This document shows, piece by piece, positions 56,139 through 60,842 of a stretch of DNA of 64,000 nucleotides (within the stretch, counting starts at the first letter, position 1; each line of letters starts with the position of its first letter). The stretch is from Lentzea aerocolonigenes (GTDB lineage: Bacteria; Actinomycetota; Actinomycetes; Mycobacteriales; Pseudonocardiaceae). The stretch is taken from positions 186,001 to 250,000 of the forward strand of contig NZ_BBOJ01000008.1 in assembly GCF_000974445.1 (NCBI RefSeq). Direction: 5' to 3'. The notes under the pieces were generated by a model. It did not search any database. It worked only from the letters and a program-made list of their open reading frames with translations, and was not told the DNA's origin. Position numbers and translations under genes: made by a program.

Positions 56139-58235
56139 CTACAACTCCATGCCGGTGGCATTCGCGAGAAACGTCAGCTGGTCCACGGCGAGAGCGACCG
56201 TCCGGCTGACCGAACGGCCCGCGTGACCGACCTCGGTCTCGCGGCGGATCAGCACGGGGTGCTTGGTCGGATCACTTGACGAAGCGTGCTGCAGTGCCGC
56301 GCACATCTTCCTGGCGTGGTTGGGGTCCACACGAGAATCCGACTCGAACACCGTGAACAACACGGAAGGGTACTCAACGTCCGTTACCACTCGGTGATAA
56401 GGCGAGTAGGAGAGCAGCCAGTCCAGCTCCTCGGAAACGCTTGCGCTGCCGTACTCGTCGGCCCACAACCGTCCGAGCAGGAACTTCTCGTAGCGCACCA
56501 TGTCCAGCAGTGGCGCTGAGCACACCACGGCGGCGTAGAGCTCTGGCCGCTGGGTCAGCGCGGCGCCCACGAGCAGGCCGCCGTTGGAGCCGCCCATGAT
56601 CGCCAGCTGCTGGGGCGTGGTCCAGCCGTCGCGCACCAGGCGTTCCGCGGCGGCGTGGAAGTCGTCGAACACGTTCTGCTTGTTGGCGCGCATGCCGGCG
56701 ACGTGCCAGTCCTCGCCCTCCTCGTCGCCGCCGCGCAACGACACGTGCACCCACACACCGCCCGCTTCCACCCAGGCCAGCGTGGTCGCGCTGTAGCCGG
56801 GGCCGCGGCCGATCGCGAAGCCGCCGTAGCCGGTGAGCAGCGCGGGGCGGGGCAGGTCGGGCTTCTGCTCGCCGCTCACGACGAACATGCGGACGGTGGT
56901 GCCGTCCTTGGACGTGTACGCGATCTGCTGCGTCTTCACGGCCGGCAGCTCGACGCGGCCCGGCGAGGCCTCGTGCAGCACCGTTTCGCCGGTGGACGTG
57001 GAGAAGCGGTACACCGACTGCGGCGTGACGAAGTCCGTCCACCCGAACCACACCGTGTCCTGGTCGTGGCCGGTGTGCGCGTCCACGACGGACATGCCGT
57101 GCACCGAACCCGTGCCGGGCAGCGGGATCTGCCGCTGGTGCGCACCGGTCGCGGCGTCGTGCAGGTGCAGCTCGGACACCGCGTGCCGGGTGCGGGCGAC
57201 GACGAGGTCGCCGTCGAGCCAGCGCACACCGTCCAGCACGGAGTCCGGTTCCTCGCCGATGAGCTCGGTCCACTCGGTGGGGTTCGCCGGGTCCGCGACG
57301 CAGAGGCGCTGCCGCGGTGCGTTCAGGGTGGTGTGCAGGTAGAGCCTGCCATCGCGCGCGACGAACGCCGAGCACTGCACGCCGGCCTCGGACAGGATCA
57401 CGGGCTTGAGCTCGCCGTCGCCGTGCAGGTCCGCGATCCACACGGAGTCGTGCTTCGTCGTGCTCGGTGCACCGCTCACGATCAGCCAGCGGCCGTCCTG
57501 CGAGAGGTTGAGCGTGTAGTAGAAGGTGTGCTCCAGGCCGTCGCCGTGCACGTTGAGGTCCGTGTCCGGGTCGGTGCCGACGCGATGGCGCCACACGCGC
57601 CGATGGAACAGCTTCTCGTCGTCGGGCAGCAACGCCGGGTCGACCTGGCGTACGTAGTAGAACTCCTCACCGCCGGGCAGCCAGCCGATCGCGGAGTAGC
57701 GGCACCGGTCGATGGGGCCCTCGATGAGCTCGCCGGTCTCGACGTCGATGACGTGCAGCAGCGAGTGCTCGTTGCCGCCGATCGAGACCTGGTAGGCCAG
57801 CCGCGTTCCTTCGAGACTGGGGGACCAGCCGTCCAGCGTGGTCCTGCCGGACGGGTCGAGCGCGCTGACGTCGAGCAGCACGCGTTCGGTGCCGTCGGTC
57901 TCGCGCACCACGACGACGGGGTGGTCCTGCTCGGGACCGCGGCTCGTGAAGAACGCCCTGCCCGCGCGCCAGGTCGGGGTGGACACCGAACCCGTGCGCA
58001 TCAGCTCCTTCAGCCGCTCGCCCAGGCGTGCGCGGCCCGGCATCGCGTCCAACCAGGAGCGTGCGAGCACGTCCTGCGCCTGCGACCACGCTTCGGTGCG
58101 AGGGTCCGCGGTGTCCTCGAGCCAGCGGTACGGATCGGCGACTTCGCGCCCGTGAATCTGCTCGGCGAGGTTTAGCCGCTCGGCGATCGGGTAGATGATC
58201 GTCGCAGGCAGTGGAGTGGAAGGTGCCTCTGTCAC
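56139..58235 (-). CDS. Prolyl oligopeptidase family serine peptidase
   Basis: A 698-residue S9A peptidase, expected cytoplasmic, cleaving short peptides after proline. The N-terminal beta-propeller spans about 75-420. The alpha/beta hydrolase part carries the nucleophile Ser550 in MGGSNGGLL, the Asp in ESDSRVDPNH and the His in TEVGHAGRS. DPYRWLED near residue 35 is the family opening. GTG 58235 is chosen because it gives TEAPSTPLPATIIYP, the usual short lead; the frame continues upstream to 58328. Absent at this place in M. tuberculosis, so it is an insertion in the conserved block. Confidence 0.94.
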   Translation of the reverse strand: MTEAPSTPLPATIIYPIAERLNLAEQIHGREVADPYRWLEDTADPRTEAWSQAQDVLARSWLDAMPGRARLGERLKELMRTGSVSTPTWRAGRAFFTSRGPEQDHPVVVVRETDGTERVLLDVSALDPSGRTTLDGWSPSLEGTRLAYQVSIGGNEHSLLHVIDVETGELIEGPIDRCRYSAIGWLPGGEEFYYVRQVDPALLPDDEKLFHRRVWRHRVGTDPDTDLNVHGDGLEHTFYYTLNLSQDGRWLIVSGAPSTTKHDSVWIADLHGDGELKPVILSEAGVQCSAFVARDGRLYLHTTLNAPRQRLCVADPANPTEWTELIGEEPDSVLDGVRWLDGDLVVARTRHAVSELHLHDAATGAHQRQIPLPGTGSVHGMSVVDAHTGHDQDTVWFGWTDFVTPQSVYRFSTSTGETVLHEASPGRVELPAVKTQQIAYTSKDGTTVRMFVVSGEQKPDLPRPALLTGYGGFAIGRGPGYSATTLAWVEAGGVWVHVSLRGGDEEGEDWHVAGMRANKQNVFDDFHAAAERLVRDGWTTPQQLAIMGGSNGGLLVGAALTQRPELYAAVVCSAPLLDMVRYEKFLLGRLWADEYGSASVSEELDWLLSYSPYHRVVTDVEYPSVLFTVFESDSRVDPNHARKMCAALQHASSSDPTKHPVLIRRETEVGHAGRSVSRTVALAVDQLTFLANATGMEL

Positions 58236-58386
58236 CTTGTCAAGGGTAGCGGGCGATGAAAACCATCTCCGATAGGGAGCTGGTTCACCCCGGGTTTGAT
58301 CACACATCCATGACGCGTCACTTATCACACGTGATTTTTTGCTGGTAAGTGTGGTCTCCTATGGCTGAACCGGTGGAGGTGGTCGC

Positions 58387-59055
58387 GTGCCAGACCGACA
58401 ACCGACCCCTATCGGCGCCTCGCAGGCCGGCGAGACGGCGCCGACGGTGCCCCCATGCCGAAAACAGGCCGAACTGCGGGCAGTGCCCGATGGGGAGCGA
58501 GACGGGGGAGGTTCCGGTCAGACACCGGCGATTTTCCCCTGGGGAAGACGCAAGGTCCTGCTGCTGAACGCCACGTTCGAGCCGCTCACGGCCCTGTCAC
58601 TGCGCCGGGCGGTCGTCCTGGTGGTGTGCGGCAAGGCCGAAGTCGTGCACGGAGACGCCTCCGGGCTGGTGCTGCACTCGTCGAAGTCCGAGGTGCTCGT
58701 GCCATCCGTGATCCGGCTGAGCACCTACGTGCGGGTGCCTTATCGCGGTCGTGTGCCGATGACCCGTGCCGGGCTCATGCACCGGGACCGTTATCGCTGC
58801 GCCTACTGCGGCGGGCGGGCCGAGACGATCGACCACGTCGTGCCGCGCTCTCGTGGCGGACCTCACGCCTGGACCAACTGCGTCGCCTGCTGTGCGAAGT
58901 GCAACCACCGCAAGGCGGACAAGCTGCTGTCCGAACTGGGCTGGCGGCTGCGCGTCGTTCCCGCGGCGCCACGTGGTCCTCACTGGCGGCTGCTCGCCGG
59001 GGTGGCCGAGGCTGATCCGCAGTGGCTGCCGTACCTGGGTGAACCCGCGGCCTGA
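58387..59055 (+). CDS. HNH endonuclease (Rv2469c-like)
   Basis: A 222-residue protein. After a disordered N-terminus of about 50 residues, the fold begins at RKVLLLNATFEPLTALSLRRAVVLVV. The HNH core is YRCAYCGGRAETIDHVVPRSRGGPHAW plus CAKCNHRKAD, with Cys138, Cys141 and a second Cys pair binding structural zinc, and the catalytic His in TIDHVV. GTG 58387 has GGAGG six bases ahead; the overlapping frame from 58349 is not preferred. By position and strand it corresponds to Rv2469c. DNA cleavage is inferred; the cellular role is unknown. Its stop lies 14 bases from that of the convergent repeat protein. Confidence 0.93.
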   Translation: MPDRQPTPIGASQAGETAPTVPPCRKQAELRAVPDGERDGGGSGQTPAIFPWGRRKVLLLNATFEPLTALSLRRAVVLVVCGKAEVVHGDASGLVLHSSKSEVLVPSVIRLSTYVRVPYRGRVPMTRAGLMHRDRYRCAYCGGRAETIDHVVPRSRGGPHAWTNCVACCAKCNHRKADKLLSELGWRLRVVPAAPRGPHWRLLAGVAEADPQWLPYLGEPAA

Positions 59056-59069
59056 TCAGCGTTGCAGGG

Positions 59070-59582
59070 TCAGGCCGCGAGGGAGAAGTCGTTCTGGCGC
59101 GCGGTGATGCGCACGGAGTCGTTCGCGGTGATGCGGACCGAGTCGTCCATCGTGATGCGCACGGAGTCTTCACGCGCGGTGATGCGGACGCTGTCCTGCT
59201 GAGCGGTGATGCGCACGGAGTCGTCGAGCGCCGTGATCCGGACCGAGTCGTCGTGCGCGGTGATCCGGACCGAGTCGTCCATGGTGATCCGGACGGAGTC
59301 GTCGTGAGCGGTGATGCGCACCGAGTCGTCGTGAGCGGTGATGCGGACCGAGTCGTCCATGGTGATCCGGACCGAGTCCTCGGCCGTGATGCGCACGGAG
59401 TCGTCCATCGTGATGCGCACCGAGTCGTCGAGCGCCGTGATCCGGACCGAATCGTCAGCGGTGATCCGAACGGAGTCGCTCATCGTGATCCGGACGGAGT
59501 CACTGGCCGTAATACGCACTGAATCGTCCTTGTAGCTCGGAAGAGTGAAGGTCACGGCCTGGGGGCGGGTCATCGTGAACAT
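59070..59582 (-). CDS. DSVRIT repeat protein, 17 repeats (unknown function)
   Basis: A 170-residue protein that I do not recognise. Residues 1-19 (MFTMTRPQAVTFTLPSYKD) act as a lead; residues 20-163 are 17 tandem units of 8 or 9 residues, each beginning DSVRIT without exception; residues 164-170 (NDFSLAA) end the protein. Five units have the form DSVRITM(D/S), twelve DSVRITA plus one or two variable residues, often HD or LD. There is no Cys, Gly or Pro in the repeats and no signal peptide or membrane helix. ATG 59582 has an excellent GGAGG seven bases ahead. Codons for the invariant residues vary (Ser as TCG, TCC, AGC and TCA), so the repeat is kept by protein-level selection rather than recent copying. 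It interrupts the HNH-ctaJ order. A beta-solenoid, amyloid-like or multi-core peptide precursor is possible. Confidence 0.85.
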   Translation of the reverse strand: MFTMTRPQAVTFTLPSYKDDSVRITASDSVRITMSDSVRITADDSVRITALDDSVRITMDDSVRITAEDSVRITMDDSVRITAHDDSVRITAHDDSVRITMDDSVRITAHDDSVRITALDDSVRITAQQDSVRITAREDSVRITMDDSVRITANDSVRITARQNDFSLAA

Positions 59583-60130
59583 TTTGTGTCCTCCAGGACT
59601 CTCGGGGCGGGTGCGCAAGACCCGTATAGGTGAAAAGCTAAGAGGTGGGTGTTCCGGGAACAAGACCCCAAACCGGCACCCGTTCGCATCCGACCGGGTG
59701 AGGACTGACCGGGTGTAACCGCTGCGCCGCACGAGAGCACTCATTGCCTCTACTGGCCGGTATCGGCACGCTGCGTAGCCCCCGAACCGGTCGAACGTGA
59801 TATGCGTCATACCCCGGAAGGTGTGACTGGAGCCTGCGGCCCGCGCTCGTGACCGCACGAGGCCGTCGACCCGCTGTCACTGGTAGTTGCTGCCGCAATC
59901 ACGGCCGTTCTGCACGGCCACGACCCGCGCCCTGCTCCATCCAGGTGCTCGGTCTCGCCGAACCGGTGGTTCCGCGCCGTGTCGCGTCCACGGCGGCCGG
60001 AGCTCTGCTAGGGCTTCGGTCGACGTCTGATCCGCGACAGCCGGGCCCGAGGCGGCTCGATCGTGGGATTGATCGCGATCACGCTGGCCCGGCCGCTCAC
60101 GCGCGGGTGAGTTGGGCTACCGTACCCGCC
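59583..60130. other. Intergenic region between repeat protein and ctaJ
   Basis: No convincing gene is seen in 548 bases. A TATACG -10-like box on the minus strand at 59623-59628 lies about 40 bases before the repeat-protein ATG, without a clear -35. GACCGGGTG is repeated at 59692-59700 and 59707-59715, and GGCCGT/ACGGCC at 59903-59919 forms a small 6-bp hairpin. The minus-strand frame of the repeat protein stays open to 59858, but no ribosome site supports a longer form. Confidence 0.5.
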
Positions 60131-60376
60131 GTGACCATCGTGGAGACCGTTCTCGTCTTCGCGCTGATCCCGCTGGCGATCTACGGCGTGATCACGCTGC
60201 TGACGGTGAGGCCAAAGGCCACCCGGATTCCCCGGTACCGGCCCGGCCAGGAGTGGGGCTACGCCCCGGTGTGGTGGAGCGCGAACCCGGCCGGGTTGAG
60301 CGCGGAGCACCACAGCGCCGCCGAGCCCGCTACCTCGGGCTCGACCGCCAAGGGAGGTGCCCGTGGCAACTGGTAA
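60131..60376 (+). CDS. ctaJ: CtaJ-like small membrane subunit of cytochrome aa3 oxidase
   Basis: An 81-residue protein with one N-terminal membrane helix (IVETVLVFALIPLAIYGVITLL, about 3-24) and a hydrophilic tail containing RYRPGQEWGYAPVWWSANPAGL, the conserved block of small actinobacterial proteins found as CtaJ in mycobacterial aa3-oxidase/bcc supercomplexes. Its coupling to a DUF5130 gene upstream of pepN is the same as in mycobacteria. GTG 60131 is the start. The downstream gene begins inside its last codons. The identification comes from family memory and context. Confidence 0.7.
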   Translation: MTIVETVLVFALIPLAIYGVITLLTVRPKATRIPRYRPGQEWGYAPVWWSANPAGLSAEHHSAAEPATSGSTAKGGARGNW

Positions 60377-60842
60377 GGCGATCGAGGCCGTCGACCCGTC
60401 GACGCTGCCGGTCGGTGCCGTCGTGACGAACAGCGGCCGTGTGTCCGTGGCGAAGATGTACGAGCCGCACGCACCGGAGCTGCCGTTCACGCCGACCCAG
60501 CTCGCGCAGCTGGACGAGGCGCTGACCCTGTCGAGCCGCACGACCGGCCTCGACTTCAGCGTGTACCTGGGCGAGCTCGGCTCGTCCTCCCGCGAGCGCG
60601 CGGAGGAACTGCACGCCTCCACCGACCGCCCGTCGCACCACGTCCTGGTGGCCGTGTCGCCGGGCGAGCGCGTCGTCGAGGTCGTGACCGGCGAGGAGTC
60701 CCACCGCCGTCTCCCCGACCGCGGCGCCAAGCTCGCGGTGATGAGCATGGTGGCGTCCTTCAAGGAGGGCGACCTCGCGGGCGGCCTCGTGTCGGGCCTG
60801 CGCATGCTGACCGACCAGGCGGGCAACGCACCGCGTTCCTGA
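60363..60842 (+). CDS. DUF5130 family protein (Rv2468c-like)
   Basis: A 159-residue protein. GRVSVAKMYEPHAPELPFTPTQLAQLDEAL and DFSVYLGELG, then LVAVSPGERVVEVVTGEESHRRLPDRGAKLAVMSMV, form a TPM-like alpha/beta domain characteristic of DUF5130. In mycobacteria the equivalent protein has been seen as an accessory subunit (CtaI) of the aa3 oxidase supercomplex; I recall this and cannot check it here. GTG 60363 is chosen because GGGAGG lies six bases ahead; it overlaps ctaJ by 14 bases. A strong terminator follows. Confidence 0.8.
   Translation: MATGKAIEAVDPSTLPVGAVVTNSGRVSVAKMYEPHAPELPFTPTQLAQLDEALTLSSRTTGLDFSVYLGELGSSSRERAEELHASTDRPSHHVLVAVSPGERVVEVVTGEESHRRLPDRGAKLAVMSMVASFKEGDLAGGLVSGLRMLTDQAGNAPRS

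Follow-up and report, generated by a model that had tools for sequence, protein, structure and literature searches.

The minus strand of the window (the whole 64,000-nucleotide stretch of Lentzea aerocolonigenes DNA that was analysed) contains an open reading frame at 59070-59582 that encodes a 170 aa repeat protein, P0001. Translation yields a 19-residue lead, MFTMTRPQAVTFTLPSYKD; an array of seventeen 8-9 residue units, 17/17 of which begin with exactly DSVRIT, as the original prediction had read them; and a 7-residue C-terminal tail, NDFSLAA. Because the HNH endonuclease gene is convergent on one side and ctaJ and a DUF5130 gene are divergent on the other, the repeat gene is probably its own transcription unit. 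The features of the locus, with the basis of assignment in brackets where one applies, are:

58387..59055, plus strand: HNH endonuclease gene, convergent neighbour, conserved flank
59070..59582, minus strand: repeat protein gene, 170 aa, 17 SVRIT cores (translation; protein match in 24/24 genomes of the genus)
59073..59093, minus strand: C-terminal tail NDFSLAA, like the end of the genome's own tmRNA tag, ATSNDKRAFALAA
59094..59525, minus strand: array of 17 units, DSVRIT plus 2-3 variable residues, conserved core SVRIT
59526..59582, minus strand: 19-residue lead (translation; alignment of ends across genera)
59589..59594, minus strand: strong Shine-Dalgarno GGAGGA, before the ATG (sequence)
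59615..59636, minus strand: conserved start-site element TTTTCACCTATACGGGTCTTGC (alignment; genome-wide and family searches)
59635..59640, minus strand: probable -10 hexamer TAGCTT (inferred from alignment)
59658..59663, minus strand: probable -35 hexamer TTGTTC, 17 bp upstream of the -10 (likewise from alignment)
60134..60376, plus strand: ctaJ (aa3-type oxidase subunit), divergent neighbour, conserved flank
60357..60842, plus strand: DUF5130/TPM-domain gene, conserved flank

The array locus is single in this genome. A protein search with P0001 matches only the window locus in the 10.7 Mb, and a degenerate codon pattern for the SVRIT word matches 17 times at the gene and otherwise at just two single stray sites (in other frames or antisense to other genes), a disproportion that leaves chance no candidate for the origin of the array. 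Seven neighbouring genes were scanned against Pfam and NCBIfam: HNH, DUF5130, an S9 peptidase, MscS, a globin, and two genes that match no Pfam family, of which one is CtaJ by NCBIfam. The S9 prolyl-oligopeptidase-type gene (56139-58328) adjoins HNH in many genera; it was not found in the fetched loci of GTRVT type (see below) of genera g11, g12, g4 and g6, some of whose flanks are short, and MscS is the next match past HNH in those of these loci whose flank extended that far.

Distribution and upstream element

P0001 has a protein match in 24/24 Lentzea genomes, where the 23 catalogued arrays contain 14 to 29 units, and in 109 of the 390 GTDB genomes of the family Pseudonocardiaceae. The repeat gene was found at the same locus in 39 of 46 family genera (44 of the 46, all but g20 and g44, being covered at the locus); HNH adjoins it, as does ctaJ or DUF5130 wherever the fetched flank was long enough. 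Five further genera, represented by 1-2 genomes each, are without an array: g15, g41, g45, g30 and g5. In one genome each of g15, g41 and g45 the gene is absent and HNH and ctaJ lie 42-96 bp apart, while the fetched stretches of g30 (two genomes) and g5 (one) contain no array; two g30 genomes match P0001 weakly (G276, 1.6e-4; G309, 3.3e-5). The comparison of the HNH-ctaJ interval across the family, proposed with the original prediction, supports its description of an insertion in a conserved block: the gene occupies this interval in most genera and is missing from three genomes whose flanking genes lie close together.

Orthologues were collected in a hand-assembled catalogue of 127 genomes from 39 genera, whose proteins contain 3 to 62 units (median 16). 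Its loci were drawn from the P0001 protein search, the upstream element described below and DUF5130, and are therefore partly element-selected; an open frame was required for inclusion, so the open frames are no separate evidence. Three Lentzea matches (G005, G013, G021) were flagged with an internal TGA, and their catalogued frames are open. Outside the catalogue are non-syntenic element matches (L171, L174, L194), duplicates, one Lentzea genome (G011), and two g7 genomes for which no array frame was chosen (G072 and G075, in which 5 and 2 cores were later seen).

When a GTRVT protein was searched at class level for arrays beyond the family, 89 of 296 genomes matched at E<=0.001, two of them family members, and of 12 class-level loci fetched, at least 2 cores occur in a family member only. 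The best non-family match, L225 in G501, has a repetitive frame reading TGTRVP... at 63% identity and no run of cores. Scans of viral_contigs with one GTRVT and one SVRIT protein found no relative, and tblastn matches in phages (2 records) and plasmids (15 records), one of them an annotated Vgr protein, are all below 60% identity; on these results a phage origin was rejected.

Alignment of 64 loci brought in by array matches reveals a shared element, TTTTCACCTRTACGGGTCTTGC or a close variant. Upstream of it stand a likely -10, TAGCTT or a hexamer like it, and, a further 17 bp up, a TTGT-type -35. These loci come from an element-independent set of 70 (L009-L078), in which L057, L075 and L076 lie elsewhere and L041, L046 and L061 were missed by the alignment script (their genomes carry the element too); the 64 include at least three second copies of one genome and a degenerate locus, L060. 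From the alignment a -35/-10 promoter is probable. A consensus scan of 58200-60400 recognised no sigma-70-like site and no terminator, and no RNA family reaches the gathering threshold in the window between 50000 and 64000. The distance from the end of the element to the start codon is 49-54 nt, or 31-32 nt in Lentzea.

The element is locus-specific. At <=3 mismatches it matches once per genome in 6/6 tested genomes, always at this locus, which rules out a regulon box. At <=2 mismatches it occurs in 273/390 family genomes and 38/46 genera, the downstream gene having been inspected in part of the 273; the opened g15 and g20 matches lack synteny. As a probe for the locus this DNA outperformed the protein sequence. 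In a class-wide sample it is present in 11/394 genomes, two being family members. It is found in 122/127 catalogue genomes with a full upstream stretch, a figure partly conditioned by how the catalogue was selected. The loci of g27, g3, g38 and one g35 genome have an array and no element recognisable at <=4 mismatches. With the upstream element and Shine-Dalgarno common to many genera, the earlier contention that the gene is meant to be expressed is probably correct.

Genus-specific cores under selection

The arrays follow a general core form, [GS]-[TVI]-R-[VI]-[TSNHE], realised as eleven cores: SVRIT, GTRVT, GVRIS, GTRIT, GVRVT, GIRVT, GIRVN, GVRVN, GVRIH, GVRIE and GVRIN. Each genus keeps to one core in its arrays (the exception, g24, has both GIRVN and GVRVN), some cores are common to several genera, and Arg is the sole residue present in all of them. 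The invariance originally ascribed to DSVRIT thus extends over Lentzea and near genera; family-wide it gives way to a kept five-residue core. Spacers are free in length and content, and unit spacing differs by genus, being uniformly 6, 8-9, 10, mostly 11, or irregular (mostly 6 to 12, up to 35), variation that weakens the fixed-coil form of the solenoid first envisaged. The net charge per residue has a median of -0.03 in Lentzea (23 proteins, all net acidic) and, at the other extreme, of +0.16 in g11 (9 proteins), and GTRVT and GVRIS arrays are strongly basic; Asp directly precedes 629 of the 699 SVRIT cores in all genera. Since spacing and net charge both vary between genera, the kept part is the core alone.

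Within proteins the core is nearly always exact: across the 127 proteins of 39 genera, 2312 units carry the dominant core of the protein they belong to, and 54 depart from it at a single residue. Exact units compared pairwise within one protein show synonymous differences at a mean of 2.38 of 5 codons. The window gene has 12 DNA versions of SVRIT among its 17 units, with a mean of 2.43/5 codons differing per pair and no amino-acid change among the repeated residues. Third codon positions, Ser (TCN/AGY) and Arg (CGN/AGG) codons vary between units as the residues stay constant, and exact core identity is therefore held by selection, as had been claimed from the window gene. A codon test of the window array gave a pN of 0.026, which, the 17 units being identical in residues, must stem from synonymous changes that take several steps (Ser TCN/AGY). 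Codon use for SVRIT is broadly like that of nearby Lentzea genes, apart from over-use of GTT (77/699 Val codons, versus 2% nearby). The same codon variation makes it scarcely credible that this is a DNA- or RNA-level repeat whose translation is incidental, even though tandem repeats are visible in the DNA and the upstream element is conserved more than the protein outside the core; the 5' element itself may act at the nucleic-acid level.

The spectrum of the 54 variants is informative. T-to-S at core position 5 occurs zero times, though S is normal there in other genera, and I-to-V occurs 6 times in GVRIS arrays; the absence of Lys for Arg is less telling, because two base changes are required from CGN. 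Conservative exchanges are thus scarce inside an array, yet they distinguish genera. This scarcity points to a lock-and-key reading of each unit rather than to a strand-forming pattern alone, and the core is stricter than folds normally need.

A quick-method tree built from 59 rows of HNH plus DUF5130, with 16 of its 56 inner branches open, requires 14 changes among 12 states, including 'no gene', where the floor is 11. With eleven cores and 14 state changes on this flanking-gene tree, whole arrays have switched core repeatedly. Rows without the gene are nested among gene-bearing ones, which suggests loss (support is weak, and the g41 branch long). A longer period also appears in hexamer arrays of g6, g11, g12, g28 and g33, where the residue after each GTRVT tends to A-R-R-A-R-R; the lag-3 match is 0.56-0.9 in those five genera and only 0.33-0.36 in g19 and g46. 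This 18-residue superperiod could be structural or inherited. In 4/8 g23 genomes (G239, G236, G241, G238; loci L236-L239, respectively) we observed a separate small protein in which 3-5 DSVRIT units come after what looks by eye like a signal peptide, two of the four having the tail GVCEGPDREHILC; the g23 array at the usual locus uses GTRVT in the two genomes examined.

The lead is loosely conserved across genera, many of which have a Gln at about position 8-9 and T(R/L)(S/P) at about 13-16, and inspection of the arrays by eye recognised no signal peptide. Among the 127 C-termini, 51 end in LAA or LAG, 67 end in AA, and 76 are without LAA/LAG; the LAA/LAG ends occur in some or all proteins of Lentzea and 11 other genera. 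The tmRNA tag of the Lentzea genome itself ends FALAA, one residue away from the FSLAA of its repeat protein, which in this respect has the tag-like C-terminus of a ClpXP C-degron. Array C-termini (FSLAA, FALAA, LALAA) likewise resemble the YALAA end of the tmRNA (ssrA) tag (PMC7652416), differing from a tag in that they are genome-encoded in a normal protein and that 76/127 proteins lack such an end. In E. coli, GFP ending in YALAA is reported to be degraded by ClpXP and GFP ending only in LAA is not (PMC7652416).

Relation to described families and proposed role

P0001 passes three Pfam cut-offs: DUF2345 (PF10106; 61.2 bits against 30.7), DUF3540 (29.5 against 27.9) and ChapFlgA (27.0 against 23.8). 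DUF2345, the VgrG beta-helix family, matches neither of two controls (P0001 reversed, or with its core letters permuted), indicating that the resemblance is to the actual strand pattern beyond composition. Membership was nevertheless not accepted: the DUF2345 scores of GVRIS and GVRIE orthologues (27.1 and 28.7) are below cut-off, a GIRVN protein has no match, a GTRVT orthologue has no Pfam match of any kind at E<=0.01, and only a 19-residue lead stands ahead of the array, where in VgrG the gp27 and OB domains precede the helix in the same protein. DUF3540 falls to 20.1 and 18.5 bits in two orthologues. A match to a described family, which the original prediction said would remove the novelty, thus formally exists for P0001; we do not count it as membership. 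No type VI or phage-tail gene is among the 7 scanned neighbours. Octapeptide-like strand repeats are shared with the VgrG beta-helix and with the T4 gp5 needle (the latter described in PMC3004832); the repeat protein differs from both in having no other domain and a spacing of 6 to 11 instead of a constant octapeptide.

The bacterial hexapeptide transferase repeat, a left-handed beta-helix, was rejected too: the best score (GVRIE, 26.6) is below the cut-off of 27, GTRVT has none, and the six-residue phase is lost in 8- to 11-residue arrays. The GTRVT array has six weak NCBIfam matches, three of them to left-handed beta-helix families. Altogether, searches of NCBIfam, PHROGs, PADLOC and PDB sequences returned no convincing match; PADLOC returned no match for two array proteins, and a defence role was set aside on that result. 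The strings DSVRIT, GVRISG, GTRVTA and SVRITA occur in no paper of the open full-text literature searched (subscription papers and preprints lying outside this scope), and broader searches there listed nothing on the subject, as judged from titles and the openings of abstracts.

Two systems built on short repeats were compared. CsoS2 of alpha-carboxysomes, a protein of about 90 kDa, binds Rubisco through its N-terminal domain and has seven repeats in its middle region; its repeated (V/I)(T/S)G triplets, 8 residues apart, bind shell proteins weakly and multivalently (PMC11365436). Triplet type and spacing resemble those of GVRISG arrays, for which the rule of (V/I)(T/S)G at 8-residue spacing is largely true, as it is not of SVRITA or GTRVTR arrays; unlike CsoS2, the repeat protein consists almost wholly of array and its core centres on Arg. 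A CsoS2/microcompartment identity was rejected because the BMC shell gene (PF00936) was not found in 10/10 gene-bearing genomes tested. Two BMC shell matches were seen in G380 (contig 9, 268891-272420), a family member without the gene, and none in the other 11 genomes tested. Graspetide precursors with several core repeats exist (PMC8939145) and share with the arrays a short leader followed by repeated cores; they differ in that the arrays have many exact copies and a core without the Thr/Glu/Asp arrangement. Membership among multicore RiPPs or graspetides fails on the 7 scanned neighbours, which include no ATP-grasp or other known peptide-modifying enzyme, and the cross-linking chemistry entertained in the original prediction is for that reason unsupported at the locus.

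We tentatively propose, as a real possibility somewhat short of an even chance, that the array is a degradable docking array, acting as sponge or scaffold for a partner protein. This reading follows from the strict per-residue core combined with indifference to spacing, spacer and charge. The repeat protein would be cytoplasmic, probably flexible, and multivalent; each core would act as a short linear motif that likely joins a sheet of its partner as an extra beta-strand and places its Arg in a pocket, with one conserved partner protein reading the cores one-to-one. With 3 to 62 cores per protein, the array would gather or sequester many partner molecules, and in arrays ending in LAA/LAG turnover by ClpXP would release them. 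CsoS2, with its weak and multivalent binding through short triplets that recur, offers a precedent (PMC11365436). This proposal must be tempered by several observations. None of the 7 scanned neighbours encodes a candidate partner; switches of whole arrays need a change of partner or tolerance of mixtures, as self-stacking would not; the 18-residue A-R-R period in hexamer arrays may be structural, or else inherited; and the degron is weakened by the 76/127 proteins without LAA/LAG and by the reported insufficiency of LAA alone on GFP in E. coli (PMC7652416).

The main rival to a docking array, which we consider doubtful if serious, is a self-stacking beta-prism or amyloid, in which the cores are amphipathic strands of a left-handed beta-helix, trimeric needle or functional amyloid, with positions 2 and 4 turned towards the inside, R and position 5 exposed on the outside, and Arg/Thr ladders along the rod. 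The core does alternate as an amphipathic strand, and the DUF2345 score with both controls unmatched favours a strand-stacking protein, as do the near-threshold hexapeptide-repeat score of GVRIE and the left-handed beta-helix fold of half of the weak GTRVT NCBIfam matches. The T4 gp5 needle is built on an octapeptide of which the 8-residue units are reminiscent (PMC3004832), the 18-residue pattern would fit three hexapeptides per turn, and like-on-like stacking would explain both uniform arrays and switches within one gene. Such a fold is hard to reconcile with spacing that is uniform at 6 in some arrays and mostly 11, irregular or broken by long inserts in others, and with the near absence of V/I exchanges inside and T/S exchanges outside; the GTRVT array lacks a Pfam match, and the permuted control reaches 26.8 bits with Gp5_trimer_C (cut-off 30.9), so periodic strings attract such models. 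It is unlikely that the protein is a polypeptide precursor from which ClpP and peptidases, or cleavage at Arg, would release numerous copies of one short peptide, which would serve as a message or be modified in the manner of multicore RiPPs, with genus-specific dialects. A leader with many identical short cores and free spacers, strict residue identity as in the multicopy precursors of yeast alpha-factor and ustiloxin, the tag-like C-terminus and, most intriguingly, the secreted-looking DSVRIT small protein of g23 agree with it; the arrays themselves show no signal peptide by eye, neither a modifying enzyme nor an exporter is among the scanned neighbours, the S9 peptidase, two genes away, does not accompany the array in every genus, and the GTRVT hexamer cores, one residue apart, leave no constant cutting signal. 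A polyanion or nucleic-acid binder, with the repeated Arg contacting DNA, RNA or polyphosphate, suits an Arg in every core and the strongly basic GTRVT and GVRIS arrays, and is very unlikely given that 23/23 Lentzea proteins are acidic and Asp so regularly precedes SVRIT, meaning that general charge is not kept.

The repeat gene belongs to a gene family for which no description was found: a one-site gene in most genera of the family, with its own conserved start-site element, that encodes almost only one exact five-residue word. The exactness of the core together with its wholesale change between lineages is natural evidence for a recognition event. On a bolder and quite improbable reading, the arrays are polyproteins of one peptide word that is read by a receptor or enzyme, with genus dialects around the fixed Arg, and cut or degraded into copies; if so, they would be the bacterial equivalent of precursors that contain a peptide hormone in many copies, and the DSVRIT peptides of g23 would be a relative's dialect, used for eavesdropping or jamming. 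The differences between genera offer a ready specificity code, in which a partner should prefer the core of its own genus and could therefore be fished with a short peptide, a neighbour's core serving as negative control. Should a receptor or enzyme be found, the family would provide an orthogonal set of five-residue tags.
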